This document shows, piece after piece, positions 33,541-42,192 of a stretch of 64,000 bases of DNA. Every line of letters begins with the position of its first letter. The first letter of the stretch is position 1. Position numbers and translations under genes: made by a program. Origin of the DNA: Pontibacter russatus (GTDB lineage: Bacteria > Bacteroidota > Bacteroidia > Cytophagales > Hymenobacteraceae); contig NZ_CP047984.1 in assembly GCF_009931655.1 (NCBI RefSeq), positions 4,729,001 to 4,793,000 of the forward strand, read 5' to 3'. The notes below the pieces were generated by a model. It saw nothing but the letters and a program-made list of their open reading frames with translations, had not been told where the DNA came from and did no database searches.

Positions 33541-34136
33541 ACAATGATGCGCCCCTCCCGCGCGTCGCCGTAAAGCACCGACTGCCCCGCCTCGTGCCGG
33601 TAGCCGCTGAGCCAGGCAAGCGCGGCGTCGAACTGGTGCCAGTTCCGGGGTTGCTCCTGTAACTGAAAGGGAAGCAGGCCCTGCAATGCCGCTGCGAAAG
33701 CAGGGAGCGCGGCAGGGTCTTTTTTGTAGCCCTGCAGTTCGGGCAGCAGCAGGCGAATCAGGGCCGAGGGATATGTTTCGAGTGCTGCCACGCCATTTTG
33801 AGCCAGTTGCGCCCGCAACTGGATGGCCCGCGCCGTCAGTCCCCCGATAAACATCGGCGACATGGCCTGCAACTCCCGGTCGGCCTGTCGGTAAAAGTAG
33901 TCGGATGCAGCGGAGTGGGTGGCCTGGCCGTATATAGCAGGCAGCGTCAGCGGGGCGTCTATATATACCACCTTTGCCTGCTGCTGCAGCACCAGTTCAC
34001 GCAGCCATCTGTCTGCATCCTGGCCCGCCTGGCTCTGCCATACGCGCAATTTCCCCTCAGCCAGCATGGCAGCGGCGGTGGTGCCCGCCATTTTAGCGCC
34101 GTAGTCGACACCCATGTGCTGCGTTCTCTCTTCCAT
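33537..34136 (-). CDS. DUF429-like protein (RNase H-like fold)
   Basis: A protein of about 199 residues with GVDYGAKMAGTTAAAML near the start, where the Asp-containing strand resembles an RNase H-like fold, then VVYIDAPLTLPAIY and ALETYPSALIRLLLPELQGYKK, which fit DUF429. The family has predicted nuclease-type active sites but no known role. The frame opens 23 codons further up; the ATG at 34136 or 34115 is likelier because the family begins at the DYG strand. Its stop overlaps that of the frameshifted lipoprotein gene on the other strand by four bases. Confidence 0.7.
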   Translation of the reverse strand: MEERTQHMGVDYGAKMAGTTAAAMLAEGKLRVWQSQAGQDADRWLRELVLQQQAKVVYIDAPLTLPAIYGQATHSAASDYFYRQADRELQAMSPMFIGGLTARAIQLRAQLAQNGVAALETYPSALIRLLLPELQGYKKDPAALPAFAAALQGLLPFQLQEQPRNWHQFDAALAWLSGYRHEAGQSVLYGDAREGRIIV

Positions 34137-34405
34137 ATAGGATAGCTTCAGTGACAATTTGACGGAAAACCCATGCGTTCCGTTAGTTCCTCTTACGCAG
34201 GCCATTGGCTTGGTTACAATCCTTTTCGGATTTGAGAAAACAGCGCCGGTTTATATTCCTGTTTCAGAAGCAAATTTAAACTGTTTTCGATGAAGCAATT
34301 AGCCGGGCGAGGGACTACAGGGGCTGTGTTAAACCAAAGCTGGACATTATTTCACCTTCATATTTGACTTGCTTTCGGACCTTTTAAAATATTTCTGCGT
34401 GTCGG

Positions 34406-34437
34406 TTTGGAGATGAGCTAAATATGCTTTTTATTTG
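34406..34437 (+). promoter_or_regulatory. Candidate promoter of the Cys-leader/TonB receptor unit
   Basis: TTTG (34406-34409), a 20-base gap and TTTATTTG (34430-34437) match the Bacteroidetes consensus with one mismatch in the -7 box (A to T at the second base). It would place the transcript start near 34442, about 40 bases before the small leader frame. Confidence 0.5.
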
Positions 34438-34481
34438 TCTACTTAATCTATAGGAAATATATAAATAACCATTCAAACGCC

Positions 34482-34580
34482 ATGAAAACAGTTTCTATAC
34501 ATGCTGGTCTTGACGTGCAGAGGTTTCTCCTTCCAAGTTATATATCCTGTTGTTGTTTCTGTAGCAGCGCTGTCCTCTAA
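34482..34580 (+). CDS. Possible Cys-rich leader peptide
   Basis: A 32-codon open frame beginning ATG AAA ACA, with residues 23-27 reading CCCFC, encoded by TGT TGT TGT TTC TGT. It lies between the candidate promoter and the TonB receptor gene, 358 bases before that gene's ATG. Clustered codons of one amino acid in a short leader are the hallmark of attenuation by ribosome stalling; Cys-run leaders are known before sulfur genes in other bacteria. The downstream genes (TauE/SafE exporter, Rrf2) agree with a sulfur link. It may also be a chance frame; nothing else in the window resembles it. Confidence 0.5.
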   Translation: MKTVSIHAGLDVQRFLLPSYISCCCFCSSAVL

Positions 34581-34938
34581 GCGCAAAGTTCCTGCGCCGC
34601 TGTCGTCACAGTGGCACCTTTCATTAAAAATTTACAAGCATACACTTTCTTAAGCTGTAGGCCCGCCTCTGGTAAAGAGTGCCAAAGGTTCATTCTGTTT
34701 GCTGTACCGATCGCTTCTCCCGTTGGGCGAGCCGCGCCCGGGGGCGAATCATAGTCAGCCTGGGAGTACTCTCGCTATTGCGTCCCGAATTTCTTTACAA
34801 GTAACCGGTTTGGGTTTCCCTATATGGAGCCGGGCAGCGAAGAAAGTGAAACCGGGTGGCTGGCGACCTGGCTTATGGGCTTGGCTGAGACAGCCGGGAA
34901 GTGGTGTGTCCTTTTCATCCATCTCAAAACTAACAATC
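34581..34938 (+). other. Long, probably structured leader of the TonB receptor gene
   Basis: No gene is seen. Just after the Cys-rich frame, GCGCA and TGCGC pair around a short loop (34581-34597). Further on there are GC-rich blocks that can pair (GGGCG with CGCCC near 34726-34741, and CCGGG with CCCGG near 34836-34900). The frame of the receptor is open through part of this region but lacks a credible start or signal peptide. An attenuator or other RNA switch would fit the length and the leader frame, but I could not match it to a known riboswitch. Confidence 0.4.
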
Positions 34939-37800
34939 ATGAAAAACATTATTCTATACTTATACCTGGGGCTCCTGCCTCTTATTGGCTTCTCTCAGGA
35001 GAGCAACATCATCGAAGTCACGGGCCAGGTGGTGGACCAGGACTCCAAAGAGCCCCTGCCGGGAACTAGCGTATATATAAAAGGCTCCGTCACGGGCACG
35101 GTCTCCGATGTCAACGGCGACTTTGTGCTCCGAACGAAACTGAGATTTCCCTTCACCGTCGTATTTTCATCTATTGGCTTTCAGCCACAGGAAGTGGAGG
35201 TGCAGCGTATCGGCTCCCGGCTCAACATTGCGCTGGTGACGCAGACGATGCTCGGGAAGGAGGTGGTTATCTCCGCCTCGCGCATGGAGGAAAGCCAGCT
35301 TCGCTCTCCCGTGGCCATCGAGAAACTGGATATCAGGGCCATCCGGGAAACGCCGGCGCCCAGCTTCTACGACGCGCTGGAGAACGTGAAGGGCGTGCAG
35401 ATGACCACCTCCAGCCTCACCTTCAAGGTGTCGAACACCCGTGGCTTCAACATCCCCAACAATTTCCGGTTCATGCAGCTGGTGGACGGCGTGGACATGC
35501 AGGCCGCCACGCTCGGAGTACCACTCGGCAACGCTATCGGGCCAACGGAGCTGGACATCGCCAGCGTGGAGATAACCCCGGGGGCTGCCTCCGCGCTATA
35601 TGGGATGAACGCCATCAACGGCATGGCCAACCTGATTACCAAGAGCCCCTTCCTGTACCAGGGGCTCAGCCTTTACCAAAAGACGGGTGTGAACCATGTG
35701 GACGGCAAAGACCACAGCCCAAGCCTGCTGACCGAGACGGCCGTGCGCTATGCCAGGGCTTTCAAAGACAAGTGGGCCTTCAAAGTGAACGCAAGCTATA
35801 TGCGCGGCACCGACTGGCGCGCCAACTCTGCCACCGACCAGAACCCCAATAACCTGAACACGGCTAACCCCGCCTTTCCTGCACTGGCCGGAGACAACAA
35901 CCCCGCTTCAGATGCCTGGAACAGGTACGGCGACGAGAACAACAACGCCGTCACCATCAGCGGGGTGCAGTACGGTGGCAAAAGCCAGTCCTTCCTGGTC
36001 CGCAGGACGGGCTATTGGGAGCGCGACCTGGTAAGCCCCACCGTGGACAATCTTAAGTTTGATGCAGCGCTGCACTACCGCCTGAATGAGAAGGCGGAGC
36101 TGTCGTACGGCTACCGGGTAGGCAGGATGGACGGGGTGTTCCAGCGCGGCAACAAAATTCAGCTGGACAATGTGGTAGTGCAGAACCACAGGCTGGAGCT
36201 CAAAGGCGATGACTTCTTCGTGCGATCCTACGTCTCTATCGAGAACACCGGCGACTCCTACAACGTGAAGCCCCTGGCCGACAACCTGCAGATTAGCAGC
36301 AGCGGCACCAACAGCGCGTGGGGAGCCATATATAAATCGGCGCTGCAGGCGGAACTGGACCACGACGCCGACCTGGCCACCGCCATGCAGCGGGCGAGGC
36401 TGGCCGCAGACAAGGGACGGGTAGAGCCGGGCACGGCTGCCTTCAATGCCCTGAAGAACACCATCACGGAGATTAACAACTGGGACCACGGGGCTGTGAT
36501 TCCGGGTGCCCCGGCCACAGGGGGAGCGTGGCTCTCGCAGCGAAGCCGCCTCTACCACACCGACGCACAGTGGGACTCTAAAGACAGGATAAGGTTCGCT
36601 AACCTGCTGCTGGGGGTGGATGCACGCGTATATGAGGTCATTCCGGACGGCAACAACTTTGTTGATTTCTCGAGACCGCTGCATGCACGGACACTGCCCG
36701 GCGGCGACAATGTGTATTACAAGAAGTTCGGCGCCTTCGGCCAGCTTACCAGAGCCTTCTTCGGGGAAAAACTGAAACTGTACGGCTCCCTGCGCCTGGA
36801 CTACAACCCCGAATTCGACCCGAAGCTCAACCCCCGGGTTGCTGCTGTCTACACGCTGGCGGAGCACCATAATTTCAGGGCCTCCTTTCAGAATGGATTC
36901 CGGTTCCCGTCGCTGTTTGAGGCGCTGTCATATGTCAACAACGGTAATGTGCGCAGAGTGGGCGGGCTGGCCTATATAAACGAGGGCCTGGGCTACCTCG
37001 ACAATTCCTACACGCTCGCATCCGTGAACGCCTTCAACGCGGCCGTGAACCAGGATGTGACAGATGGTTTGACAGCGGAACAGGCGGCACGGAACAACAG
37101 GAGCCTGCTTGCCAAAACCGACCTGGCCGCCACCGAGCCGGAGCGCATTAACTCCTTCGAGGTAGGTTACAGGAGCGTGCTGCTCAATAACTCGCTGGTG
37201 ATAGACGCAGACGCCTATGTAAACGAGTATGCCGGTTTTCTGGGGCAGGTGGAGGTGGCCGTGCCTTTATCGGGAGAGGTTGGCACCGATGCCGGTGTGC
37301 TGGACATGCTGGCAGCGAACCGTGCCCGGCAAACCAGGTACCGGGTATATACCAACGCCAAAAACAACTACCGCAACTATGGCTCGTCGCTGGGCCTCAC
37401 GTACAACTTCTTCAGCAGGTTCACGCTGGCGGGCAATGTCAACTACAACAACATCAGGGCGAACGCAGGGCAGGATATTTTCGTGACCGGCTTCAATACG
37501 CCAAAGTGGGCAGCAAACCTTTCCTTTGGAAACCGCGAGGTGCTGAATAACCTCGGCTTCAACCTTGTGTGGCGCTGGCAGGATGCCTTCCTGTGGGAGA
37601 GCCCGCTGGCTAACGGCAAAGTGCCCGCCTACCATACCGTGGATGCCCAGGCCACGCTGAAAGTGCCTTCCTTGAACGCAACCGTAAAGGTGGGAGGCGC
37701 CAACATCTTCAACAATAGGTACATCCAGTATGCGGCAGGACCGACCATCGGGGCGCTCTACTATGCGGCCGTTACCTTCGACGGATTATTGGCCAGGTGA
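34939..37800 (+). CDS. TonB-dependent outer-membrane receptor
   Basis: A 953-residue protein with a signal peptide (MKNIILYLYLGLLPLIGFSQ), a carboxypeptidase-regulatory-like domain (about 25-105: VTGQVVDQDSKEPLPGTSVYIKG), a plug (about 115-240: VVISASRMEESQLRS and ITPGAASALYGMNAINGMANLI) and a 22-strand barrel to the end. Such receptors import substrates through the outer membrane using TonB energy. There is no SusD partner, so a small compound is likelier than a polysaccharide. The frame extends upstream to 34699, but only the ATG at 34939 gives a signal peptide. Substrate unknown; neighbours suggest a sulfur compound or oxyanion. Confidence 0.93.
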   Translation: MKNIILYLYLGLLPLIGFSQESNIIEVTGQVVDQDSKEPLPGTSVYIKGSVTGTVSDVNGDFVLRTKLRFPFTVVFSSIGFQPQEVEVQRIGSRLNIALVTQTMLGKEVVISASRMEESQLRSPVAIEKLDIRAIRETPAPSFYDALENVKGVQMTTSSLTFKVSNTRGFNIPNNFRFMQLVDGVDMQAATLGVPLGNAIGPTELDIASVEITPGAASALYGMNAINGMANLITKSPFLYQGLSLYQKTGVNHVDGKDHSPSLLTETAVRYARAFKDKWAFKVNASYMRGTDWRANSATDQNPNNLNTANPAFPALAGDNNPASDAWNRYGDENNNAVTISGVQYGGKSQSFLVRRTGYWERDLVSPTVDNLKFDAALHYRLNEKAELSYGYRVGRMDGVFQRGNKIQLDNVVVQNHRLELKGDDFFVRSYVSIENTGDSYNVKPLADNLQISSSGTNSAWGAIYKSALQAELDHDADLATAMQRARLAADKGRVEPGTAAFNALKNTITEINNWDHGAVIPGAPATGGAWLSQRSRLYHTDAQWDSKDRIRFANLLLGVDARVYEVIPDGNNFVDFSRPLHARTLPGGDNVYYKKFGAFGQLTRAFFGEKLKLYGSLRLDYNPEFDPKLNPRVAAVYTLAEHHNFRASFQNGFRFPSLFEALSYVNNGNVRRVGGLAYINEGLGYLDNSYTLASVNAFNAAVNQDVTDGLTAEQAARNNRSLLAKTDLAATEPERINSFEVGYRSVLLNNSLVIDADAYVNEYAGFLGQVEVAVPLSGEVGTDAGVLDMLAANRARQTRYRVYTNAKNNYRNYGSSLGLTYNFFSRFTLAGNVNYNNIRANAGQDIFVTGFNTPKWAANLSFGNREVLNNLGFNLVWRWQDAFLWESPLANGKVPAYHTVDAQATLKVPSLNATVKVGGANIFNNRYIQYAAGPTIGALYYAAVTFDGLLAR

Positions 37801-37934: not shown

Positions 37935-38804
37935 ATGAAAGTACTTCTTATACCCATTGCTGCCCTGGCATTGGCTGCAGCTATACTGCTGTACACAACA
38001 GGCTATTATCTGACCCTGCTAGCCGCTGTGCCAGCTGCAGTAACCGACCAACTAAGCTCAGAGCTTTTCCTGTATATGCTGGCTGGCTTTGTGGCGCAGA
38101 TGATAGACGGGGCCTTGGGCATGGCATACGGCCTTAGCTCCACCACCTTTTTGCTGGCTATGGGCGTTCCGGCCGCCGCCGCCAGTGCCAGTGTCCATAC
38201 CTCAGAGATCTTCACTAGCGGTGTATCGGGTCTGATGCACCTCAGGTTCGGTAACGTGAACAGGAAGCTGTTCCAAACGCTGCTGCTGCCGGGTGTCATC
38301 GGAGCTGTGCTGGGGGCTTATATACTCTCGTCGCTGGAGCATTATGACTACATCATAAAGCCAGTCGTTGCCTCCTACACCATGGTGTTAGGGGTACTCA
38401 TCATCCGGAAGGCCTACCAGCTCCGGAAGAAAGGGGCAGAGATGAAGAATGTGGCCCCCTTGGCTATTTTCGGCGGTTTTATGGATTCTATCGGCGGCGG
38501 TGGCTGGGGCCCAATCGTGTCGTCCACGCTGATGGCCCGCGGCCATTGCCCCCGCTTTACCATTGGCTCTGTGAACCTGACCGAGTTCTTTGTGGCGCTG
38601 GCTTCCTCGATCACTTTTTTCACCATGATCGGACTGGTGCACTGGCAAATTATTCTGGGCTTGATTCTGGGAGGTGTCTTCGCGGCTCCTGTGGCTGCCT
38701 CTCTGACGAGGCGCCTCCCTGTCAAAACCATCAAGCTGATCGTTGGCGCAGTGGTTATCCTTATCAGCCTGAGAACAATTGGCACGGCATTATGCGCCCT
38801 TTAA
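37935..38804 (+). CDS. TauE/SafE-family (TSUP) membrane exporter
   Basis: A 289-residue protein with about eight membrane segments in two repeats: FVAQMIDGALGMAYGLSSTTFLL (about 53-75) and FGGFMDSIGGGGWGPIVSSTLM (about 175-196), the two half-signatures of the family. Members carry sulfite, sulfonates or related anions across the inner membrane. It follows the TonB receptor by 134 bp on the same strand and may be cotranscribed. The ATG lies in TATATATG, as do many starts in this window. Confidence 0.9.
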   Translation: MKVLLIPIAALALAAAILLYTTGYYLTLLAAVPAAVTDQLSSELFLYMLAGFVAQMIDGALGMAYGLSSTTFLLAMGVPAAAASASVHTSEIFTSGVSGLMHLRFGNVNRKLFQTLLLPGVIGAVLGAYILSSLEHYDYIIKPVVASYTMVLGVLIIRKAYQLRKKGAEMKNVAPLAIFGGFMDSIGGGGWGPIVSSTLMARGHCPRFTIGSVNLTEFFVALASSITFFTMIGLVHWQIILGLILGGVFAAPVAASLTRRLPVKTIKLIVGAVVILISLRTIGTALCAL

Positions 38805-39153: not shown

Positions 39154-39603
39154 TTAGCTCTGTTCGTGCTCCTGTGCTTCCACCAGGCTTGCAATTGTTT
39201 CCAGGCTGTTCAGGAAAGTATTGTCCAGTATTTGAGCGGTGGCGTCACGCACCTTCTTCATCACGATTCGAATTTCACAGGAGGCCTCATCTTTGCATTC
39301 GTCGCACTTCCGGTAATAGAGATGACTCACGCAGGGGATGGGAGCCAAGGGGCCGTCTATCATTCTGATAATATTCCCAACGGATATTTCAGAGGGGCTT
39401 TTAGCTAAGGAATAACCGCCGTTCTTGCCCCTGACACTATGTAAGATACCATTCGTCTTCAAGTCTACCAGGATGGCCTCCAGGAATTTGCGGGGAATGC
39501 GCTCTTCCCCGGCAATGTCGGAAATAACAATAAGCCCTTTATCCTGATTTTTTGTAAGGTAAAGCATGGCTTTCAATGCATATTTCGCTTTTTTAGACAG
39601 CAT
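39154..39603 (-). CDS. Rrf2-family transcription regulator with Cys cluster
   Basis: A 149-residue winged-helix regulator. MLSKKAKYALKAMLYL and IPRKFLEAILVDLKTNGILHSVRGKNGGYSLAK are the standard Rrf2 DNA-binding part. Cys 91, 100, 103 and 109 (PCVSHLYYRKC, DECKDEASC) could hold an Fe-S cluster as in IscR or NsrR. Rrf2 proteins often answer to Fe-S status, nitric oxide or cysteine supply (CymR). It is divergent from the ChrB-AraC gene, 285 bp away, and points towards the TauE/SafE gene. Control of either neighbour is inference. Confidence 0.9.
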   Translation of the reverse strand: MLSKKAKYALKAMLYLTKNQDKGLIVISDIAGEERIPRKFLEAILVDLKTNGILHSVRGKNGGYSLAKSPSEISVGNIIRMIDGPLAPIPCVSHLYYRKCDECKDEASCEIRIVMKKVRDATAQILDNTFLNSLETIASLVEAQEHEQS

Positions 39604-39888: not shown

Positions 39889-40746
39889 ATGAACTGGATC
39901 ACACGAGAGCGCCCTAAGGTGGATAGAATAGCCTGTCCGTGGCTTATCAGGAGATTTATAGACAAAGAGGCTGTTTTTTTCTTTGTGCCCTACCAGCAGG
40001 TAGTGGAAAAGGCAAAAGAACTGGACGCAACCCCGTTTGATATACCGGAGGCCGAGCTTACCCACTACAACGACCGCTGCACGTTTGATTGTTTTCTGGA
40101 GAATTACCAGCTGACAGATCGCGCCTTGCTCGTGATGGCGCCCATTATCCGGGGAGCGGACACCGACGATCACAGCCTAACGGCCCAATCGGCCGGTTTG
40201 TGGGCGATCTCGGCCGGATTAGCAGCCAATATAAATGATGACCAGGATTTGCTGGACAAGGGGATGCTTGTTTACGACGCCTTGTATACCTGGGCTAAGC
40301 ACCTGCAGGGAGTAAAGCACCTGCAGCAGCCGTCTGAAAACCTGTTCCTCCAGGTGTTCAATAAATATATGCAGGAACAGAAAGAGAAGAAGATACCGGC
40401 ATGGGCACAGGGACTGAAAGAGATTATACAAGACCAGATCGATACCAACCTCAGTATCAGCCTTAAGGAGATAGCTGAAGGACTGCAGATGCACCCTGCC
40501 TATGTATCCCGGGAGTTCTCCAGGTATTTTGATAACATGTCGTACGGAGAGTATATCCGGAAACTGCGCATCGAGAAGGCCCTGCACCTGCTCCACGCTT
40601 CATCCCATTCTCTCTCAGAGATTGCTTACCTCACCGGCTTCTCTGATCAAAGCCATTTTACCCGCATTTTCAGGAAGTATACTGGCCAGAGCCCTTCTGG
40701 CTATAAAAAAAGCCTGGCAAAAGGTAAAAAGGATTCCAAAGGTTAA
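39889..40746 (+). CDS. ChrB-type chromate sensor fused to AraC DNA-binding domain
   Basis: A 285-residue protein. Residues 1-150 match the C-terminal ChrB domain of chromate-resistance regulators: MNWITRERPKVDRIACPWLIRRFID, ATPFDIPEAELTHYNDRCTFDCFLE, and MAPIIRGADTDDH. Residues about 180-280 are an AraC-type double helix-turn-helix (LKEIAEGLQMHPAYVSREFSR and LSEIAYLTGFSDQSHFTRIFRKYTGQSP). The fusion would link oxyanion sensing directly to transcription. It ends 60 bp before chrA on the same strand, so it probably controls and is cotranscribed with chrA. Confidence 0.88.
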   Translation: MNWITRERPKVDRIACPWLIRRFIDKEAVFFFVPYQQVVEKAKELDATPFDIPEAELTHYNDRCTFDCFLENYQLTDRALLVMAPIIRGADTDDHSLTAQSAGLWAISAGLAANINDDQDLLDKGMLVYDALYTWAKHLQGVKHLQQPSENLFLQVFNKYMQEQKEKKIPAWAQGLKEIIQDQIDTNLSISLKEIAEGLQMHPAYVSREFSRYFDNMSYGEYIRKLRIEKALHLLHASSHSLSEIAYLTGFSDQSHFTRIFRKYTGQSPSGYKKSLAKGKKDSKG

Positions 40747-40806: not shown

Positions 40807-42192
40807 ATGATAAAACCTGTTGGAGACAGCGGCACCATGCAAAGCCAAACTGTTCAGAAGAAAGATGCCAACCCTTCGCCGCCCGTAAAACCGGCCTTTA
40901 GGGAAGCCCTGCTGTTCTGGCTGAAACTGGGTTTCATCAGCTTCGGAGGGCCTGCCGGGCAGATTGCCATCATGCATGAGTTTGTGGTGGATAAAAAAAG
41001 GTGGGTTTCAGACGCGAAATTTCTGCATGCCCTCAACTACTGCATGCTGCTGCCGGGGCCGGAGGCGCAGCAACTGGCCACCTATATCGGCTGGCTGTTG
41101 CACGGCGTGCGGGGAGGGCTGGTTGCAGGCATTCTGTTTGTGCTGCCCTCGGTGTTTATTCTGCTGGGCCTGAGCATGGCCTACGTCAGCTACGGCACCA
41201 TTCCGTGGGTGGCGGCCTTGTTTTACGGACTGAAGCCTGCGGTCGTGGCGATTGTGCTGCTGGCGCTTTTCAAAATCGGTAAAAAGTCGCTGGTGAGCGG
41301 TCTGCATTATATACTGGCGCTGGCAAGTTTCTGCGCCATCTTTTTCTTTGATGTTCCATTCCCCTATATCATCCTGGCCGCTATGCTGGCGGCGCTGCTG
41401 GCGCGCAAAATACTTCCTCGTCTTTTCAGTGAGCGGAAAGAGAGCGCTGCATCTGCCGCCGGGGAGCAGCAGGCATACTATGTGCATGCCACAAGCCAGG
41501 TGAGTCACGCAGCCCTGCGCCCCGGCAAAATTATAGTGCGAGGGTTGGTGGTGCTGTTCCTTTGGCTGGTGCCTTATGCGCTGTTCTATATGATGAGCCA
41601 GGAGTTCGGCTTCTGGAAAAACCTGTCGCTCTTTTTTACAAAGGCGGCGCTGGTAACATTTGGGGGCGCATATGCCGTGCTGCCGTATGTGGCGCAGGTG
41701 GCGGTCGAAAACTTAAACTGGCTCACCCGGCTCCAGATGATCGACGGGCTGTCGCTGGGGGAAACCACACCTGGGCCCCTGATCATGGTCCTGGTGTTTG
41801 TGGGTTTCATGGCGGGGTATAACCACTATGGCGGTTCGCTGCTGATGGGCGCTTTGGGACTCTTCACCACTACTTTCTTTACCTTCCTGCCCTGCTTCCT
41901 CTTCATACTGGTAGGTGCCCCGCTTATTGAGCGCACCCAGGGTGACGTGCGGGTAAAGTCGGTGCTGGGGGTTGTCACGGCGGCCGTGGTGGGGGTAATC
42001 CTGAACCTGGCAGTGTATTTCGGCAGGGCCGTCATTGTGGGGCAGGGGCAGGGAATAGACTGGCTGGCGCTCGTCTGGATTGCCGTGTCTTTCGTGGCGA
42101 TGCACCGTTTCAAGGTCGGGATGATAGCCTGGATAGCCATCAGTGCCGGAGCAGGCTTGTTGCATTACCTGTTGCAAAACCACCTGTTGTAG
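40807..42192 (+). CDS. chrA: Chromate transporter, long-chain (two-domain)
   Basis: A 461-residue inner-membrane protein with about 12 segments in two homologous halves. The first half has FWLKLGFISFGGPAGQIAIMH and LNYCMLLPGPEAQQLATYIGW; the second has FFTKAALVTFGGAYAVLPYVAQ and MIDGLSLGETTPGPLIMVLVFVG. These are the paired CHR signatures of ChrA, which exports chromate (and is competed by sulfate). A second ATG ten codons in is also possible as start. It follows the ChrB-AraC gene. Confidence 0.93.
   Translation: MIKPVGDSGTMQSQTVQKKDANPSPPVKPAFREALLFWLKLGFISFGGPAGQIAIMHEFVVDKKRWVSDAKFLHALNYCMLLPGPEAQQLATYIGWLLHGVRGGLVAGILFVLPSVFILLGLSMAYVSYGTIPWVAALFYGLKPAVVAIVLLALFKIGKKSLVSGLHYILALASFCAIFFFDVPFPYIILAAMLAALLARKILPRLFSERKESAASAAGEQQAYYVHATSQVSHAALRPGKIIVRGLVVLFLWLVPYALFYMMSQEFGFWKNLSLFFTKAALVTFGGAYAVLPYVAQVAVENLNWLTRLQMIDGLSLGETTPGPLIMVLVFVGFMAGYNHYGGSLLMGALGLFTTTFFTFLPCFLFILVGAPLIERTQGDVRVKSVLGVVTAAVVGVILNLAVYFGRAVIVGQGQGIDWLALVWIAVSFVAMHRFKVGMIAWIAISAGAGLLHYLLQNHLL

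Follow-up and report, generated by a model that had tools for sequence, protein, structure and literature searches.

A poly-Cys leader frame ahead of a sulfur-linked TonB receptor gene in Pontibacter, a probable cysteine-responsive leader peptide

The leader of a TonB-dependent receptor gene in Pontibacter russatus contains a short upstream open reading frame (uORF) with a run of cysteine codons close to its stop. On comparative sequence evidence, this frame very probably acts as a cysteine-responsive leader peptide, in which ribosome stalling at the Cys codons would raise receptor expression. We regard a switch set by the cysteine level as very probable because the frame recurs in many relatives and ahead of their cysteine-making genes. 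The frame suggests that Bacteroidota have a regulon of cysteine-sensing leader peptides, and it ties an orphan clade of TonB receptors to sulfur nutrition. A SAM-I aptamer and a poly-Cys frame in tandem, an arrangement found elsewhere in the same genome, would make a compact two-signal switch.

The receptor leader and its surroundings

The following features lie in the window, which is the whole 64,000-nucleotide stretch of DNA analysed here.

34434-34454, + strand: imperfect palindrome TTTGTCTACTTAATCTATAGG, candidate promoter/operator, from its conservation and its rarity in the window
34482-34580, + strand: poly-Cys leader peptide uORF, 32 aa, MKTVSIHAGLDVQRFLLPSYISCCCFCSSAVL
34548-34562, + strand: Cys codon run TGT TGT TGT TTC TGT (Cys-Cys-Cys-Phe-Cys), read from the sequence; proposed stalling site
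34581-34938, + strand: spacer of 358 nt between the uORF and the receptor start
34939-37800, + strand: TonB-dependent receptor (CarbopepD_reg_2, Plug and beta-barrel domains; Pfam PF13715, PF07715, PF00593), candidate regulated gene
37935-38804, + strand: TauE/SafE family transporter (Pfam PF01925)
39154-39603, - strand: Rrf2-family regulator, CymR/IscR-like (PF02082, NCBIfam rrf2_super)

The uORF extends from an ATG at 34482 to a TAA at 34578-34580 and has four Cys codons, three consecutive TGT codons (34548-34556) and a further TGT (34560-34562), so placed that the run starts 10 residues and ends 5 residues ahead of the stop. The initial annotation had claimed a 32-codon frame with this run; it is present at that place, and its Cys run is above chance. 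Across 4000 dinucleotide-preserving shuffles of the 500-nt receptor leader, in which ATG frames of 6-80 aa were scored, CCC arises in such a frame in 0.55% of shuffled leaders, and four or more Cys within five codons in 0.025%. Just three other short ATG frames with CCC occur in the 64-kb window, counting both strands. A search of NCBIfam with the leader peptide returns no family.

The candidate promoter region contains a conserved block, TTTGTCTA-N7-TATAG, at 34434-34454, which has one exact match in the window against 0.01 expected by chance and is common to the leaders of related Pontibacter and Adhaeribacter, where it stands ahead of the uORF. An Rrf2-type regulator is suspected to act at this block, given the neighbouring Rrf2 gene. 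As a marker of a regulon, the operator motif is too loose, since its 9 matches in the same genome are fewer than the 18 of a reversed-pattern control. A search of Rfam with 34100-35100 yields no match, and the SAM-I covariance model (RF00162) has no match there above its gathering score. The spacer holds one terminator-like hairpin (34596-34615) against 1.2 expected, which is not above chance. In place of a riboswitch, the receptor leader has the conserved operator-like block.

The TauE/SafE transporter is probably an operon partner of the receptor, and its family is found again next to the receptor in many orthologous loci. The Rrf2 protein scores under the CymR equivalog cut-off; Rrf2 genes also lie close to the receptor at the loci L059-L062, L066 and L073, and Rrf2 and TauE genes occur near it in Pontibacter and Adhaeribacter. 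A substrate look-up for the receptor is uninformative, as the closest solved structures, colicin I receptors, are matched via the plug domain alone. Further downstream (39889-40746), a ChrB C-terminal domain is fused with an AraC-type DNA-binding domain, and this gene adjoins a chromate transporter (40807-42192).

Recurrence in receptor orthologs and their sulfur gene context

Orthologs of the receptor, at 57-80% identity, are found in Hymenobacteraceae and other families and are distinct from a homolog group at 29-49%. We applied a strict criterion, CC inside the last 8 residues of a short ATG uORF, to the leaders of orthologs of at least 57% identity, leaving out the window's own copy. The frame is present in 54 of 82 leaders, against a shuffle mean of 3.1 and a maximum of 6 in 60 rounds, although related sequences within such counts are not independent of one another; the antisense strand gives 2. 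CCC occurs in 28 leaders of this set, compared with 0.1 expected from shuffles. None of 15 leaders of distant homologs and none of 24 leaders of other TonB receptors of the genus carries a Cys frame, and by this comparison the predicted frame is restricted to the sulfur-linked receptor clade. A check for the Cys run in orthologous leaders, suggested with the original annotation, therefore supports it, since a short frame with a terminal Cys run is seen in most of these leaders and not in the controls. About one third of the orthologs have no frame under the strict criterion.

A second set, of named taxa (Rufibacter, Adhaeribacter, Hymenobacter, Pedobacter, Hufsiella, Pelobium, Terrimonas, Segetibacter, Mucilaginibacter and others), has a CC frame in 46 of 80 leaders, with some doubt over a few of these frames. 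Many species are common to both sets, so the second count does not stand independently of the first. The frames end in ...FGCCCCR, ...LPSCCCCCA, ...HSFSCCC, ...TACCCC, ...KRCCCC, ...NRCCSRA or ...MCMCC, and their shared feature is the Cys run that closes them or lies close to the end; otherwise the peptides have little in common. Among the 46, which include the window copy, the last Cys is at most one residue from the stop in 25 leaders and at most five in 40, with the window copy at five. The distance from the uORF stop to the receptor is mostly 41-140 nt in relatives, and the 358 nt of the window is longer than most.

The initial annotation had also suggested that the receptor is linked to cysteine or sulfur, and this link is stronger than it claimed: orthologs lie inside sulfate-assimilation operons, and three further poly-Cys leaders occur in the same genome, ahead of operons for cysteine synthesis or sulfide incorporation. 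The order in loci of the Hymenobacter type is cysH, cysD, cysN, cobA-like, cysJ-like, uORF, receptor, DUF2490, cysI-like and TauE, while other families have cysteine synthase-like, cobA, cysJ, cysI, receptor and TauE. Gene names in these neighbourhoods come from sequence clusters and a reading of the proteins; Pfam or NCBIfam checks cover the cysH and sulfite reductase of the window's genome, the DUF2490 protein and the siroheme synthase/TauE fusion. No sulfate-assimilation genes were seen around distant homologs in the neighbourhoods examined. The genes downstream of the frames belong to cysteine metabolism, a link that for the receptor is read from gene context alone. At four of the ortholog loci (L060-L062 and L073), the gene 3' of the receptor has a second poly-Cys frame (e.g. 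MILPLKDLTCCCCMQVCNC) ahead of it and encodes a protein of 179-395 aa with weak similarity to Cys/Met PLP enzymes.

Poly-Cys frames downstream of SAM-I riboswitches

The window's genome contains four SAM-I riboswitches (RF00162), three of which are followed by a poly-Cys frame. In the cysHDN leader (L147:7545-7785, equivalent to C1:1167544-1167784), the riboswitch is separated by a 9-nt gap from a 42-aa frame ending ...FYCCCCCMQCC. In a second leader (L147:17309-17526, - strand), an 8-nt gap separates the riboswitch from a frame ending ...VMCCCCCRSSF ahead of a NirA-type sulfite reductase gene, 3' of which lies a fusion of the N-terminal part of siroheme synthase with TauE/SafE (L147:13079-14605, - strand). 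The metY leader has the third, with a 9-nt gap and a frame ending ...GMWCCCIC. The fourth site, the metH leader, is without a Cys run or poly-Cys frame, and SAM-I sites across the phylum ahead of genes read as metH, metE or metX likewise have no Cys frame.

Within Hymenobacteraceae, all 30 metY leaders sampled (L344-L373) have a CC frame and 28 have CCC, where shuffles give means of 1.65 and 0.25; metY leaders of more distant families in the sample have no Cys frame. In the eight Hymenobacteraceae metY leaders that were measured, 7-9 nt separate the end of the aptamer from the leader AUG; some other loci have a longer gap, such as the roughly 110-130 nt of L209 and L212. For cysH, 6 of 27 leaders across the class have a poly-Cys frame, some of them ending CCCCCCC in another family. 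The shortest poly-Cys peptides have 8 residues (MMGMPCCC). Met codons are frequently interspersed in the Cys run of metY leaders (MCMCC), which may mean that these leaders also read methionine. A pattern search of the genome for Cys runs close to a stop returns 178 matches against 54 for a reversed control, a count that is unfiltered and consists mostly of G+C-rich TGC runs.

SAM gating of leader translation in the cys/met operons is probable because SAM-I ends just 7-9 nt before the leader start in the cases measured in this family. More tentatively, Cytophagales and related Bacteroidota may use SAM-I with a poly-Cys frame as its expression platform. In such a two-input leader, SAM would close the P1 helix 7-9 nt 5' of the leader start codon and the Cys codons at the frame end would report Cys-tRNA, so that one mRNA leader would integrate SAM and cysteine. 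The receptor leader would keep the cysteine input only, and the TonB receptor would have been recruited into the cysteine-sensing regulon via a leader that retains this second input alone.

Other genes also have leaders of this form. SAM-I and a poly-Cys frame, MPVTACCTMGCCCC, lie at L068:376-579 (+ strand) ahead of an amino-acid permease gene (754-2223), a candidate cysteine or cystine transporter. At L212, L219 and L217, SAM-I and poly-Cys leaders precede other TonB (SusC-like) receptors and a RimK-like ATP-grasp protein.

The proposed cysteine switch, its rivals and its output

Comparison between genomes demonstrates, at the level of predicted frames, the frame itself, its terminal Cys run, its position and its recurrence before cysH, sulfite reductase and metY of this genome. 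From these we infer that the frame is translated and that ribosomes stall at its Cys codons. When Cys-tRNA is ample, the ribosome would pass through the frame and the downstream leader would keep a low-expression state; when it is scarce, the ribosome would be held at the Cys codons, which usually close the frame, with a rise in receptor expression as the result. The direction, from stall to higher expression, is taken by analogy from known attenuators. Sensing of Cys-tRNA by a codon run would account for the Cys run being the sole shared feature, for its terminal place and for targets that lie in one pathway.

Under one rival reading, which we consider very unlikely, the frame is no regulatory leader and its product is a functional Cys-rich small peptide that binds metals or thiols or is the precursor of a modified peptide. 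Runs of 4-7 Cys could bind metals, and genes for a chromate regulator and a chromate transporter are found further downstream in the window and close to certain other receptor loci; yet the peptides share little beyond the terminal run and can be as short as MMGMPCCC, and a codon-sensing role fits frames that stand ahead of the receptor, cysH, sulfite reductase and metY, whose products are unrelated but serve one pathway. It is very unlikely that the run arose by chance in this genome and that the receptor is regulated only by an Rrf2-type operator. The operator-like block is indeed conserved, and the orthologs at L032 and L034 have it without a poly-Cys frame, but an enrichment of about 17-fold over shuffles across orthologs, together with the 0.025% frequency in shuffles of the window leader, argues against chance.

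A further reading places the signal in the Cys residues within the exit tunnel, as nascent-peptide arrest or a thiol/sulfide sensor, and not in the A-site Cys codons. The run closes the frame, in many cases right beside the stop, and some runs mix Met and Cys, both of which are compatible with this; however, the residues 5' of the run, which a typical arrest peptide needs, are not conserved across clades, and the Cys codons alternate between TGT and TGC among leaders, making this reading highly improbable.

The proposed cysteine-responsive leader resembles known systems in several respects. The trp, his and leu attenuators have a run of cognate codons in a leader frame ahead of the pathway genes for that amino acid. 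The leaders described here are like these classical attenuators in clustering codons of one amino acid in a short leader frame, and unlike them in that no mutually exclusive terminator/antiterminator was found. Poly-Cys frames near a stop ahead of cys operons have been predicted in mycobacteria (PMC1262725), and mycobacterial poly-Cys leaderless sORFs are described as cysteine-responsive (Canestrari et al. 2020, doi 10.1111/mmi.14498, as reported in PMC9094748). Both groups have a Cys run near the stop, ahead of cysteine/sulfur genes, with no conserved terminator hairpin. The present leaders differ in phylum, in targets that include a TonB receptor and metY, and in a frame that is often 3' of SAM-I; the cys/met leaders of the window's genome are unlikely to be leaderless because a riboswitch lies upstream.

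In Rhodobacterales, uORFC-8-2 ahead of cysS has tandem Cys codons and a proposed ribosome-mediated attenuation (PMC8632094); there, a terminator stem and then cysS follow, whereas here no terminator was found and the Cys runs are longer and usually terminal. The known SAM-I (S-box) riboswitch, RF00162, stands 5' of the cysH, sulfite reductase and metY uORFs of this genome and is absent from the receptor leader in the window. In Flavobacterium, amino-acid operons have been suggested to be under leader-peptide attenuation, in a paper whose main text mentions no cysteine leader (PMC9723704). Our literature search, which covered few subscription papers, found no description of a poly-Cys leader in Bacteroidota. 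The kind of element is known from the mycobacterial poly-Cys leaders; new here are the targets and the SAM-riboswitch partner.

The output of a stall could be transcriptional (polarity/Rho) or translational. The receptor leaders contain no intrinsic terminator above chance and no mutually exclusive or terminator/antiterminator structures were found in them; because such alternative RNA structures were not found, we do not file the leader as a classical transcription attenuator. A rut-like C-rich region 3' of the uORF stop is not specific, its pooled C/G of 1.59 being equalled or exceeded in controls (1.74, 2.33). Overall, the Cys run pairs with the downstream part of the receptor leader about as well as expected by chance (mean z -0.42). 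In 16 of 44 leaders, the receptor start becomes more accessible when a stalled ribosome is modelled, which gives no support for sequestration by the Cys run, since blocking bases has this effect generically and direct pairing is near chance. Consensus structures for the receptor leaders of Rufibacter and Hymenobacter leave the Cys run unpaired. The metY leaders of the Rufibacter group have a different arrangement, found only there: a conserved stem with modest covariation has the Cys codons as one of its arms, and 85-97% of cells are paired, depending on the helix, so that a stalled ribosome would open the stem. In the same group (L357-L369), a near-invariant hairpin, GUUCAAUU-loop-AAUUGUAAC, lies some 12 nt 5' of the metY start codon.
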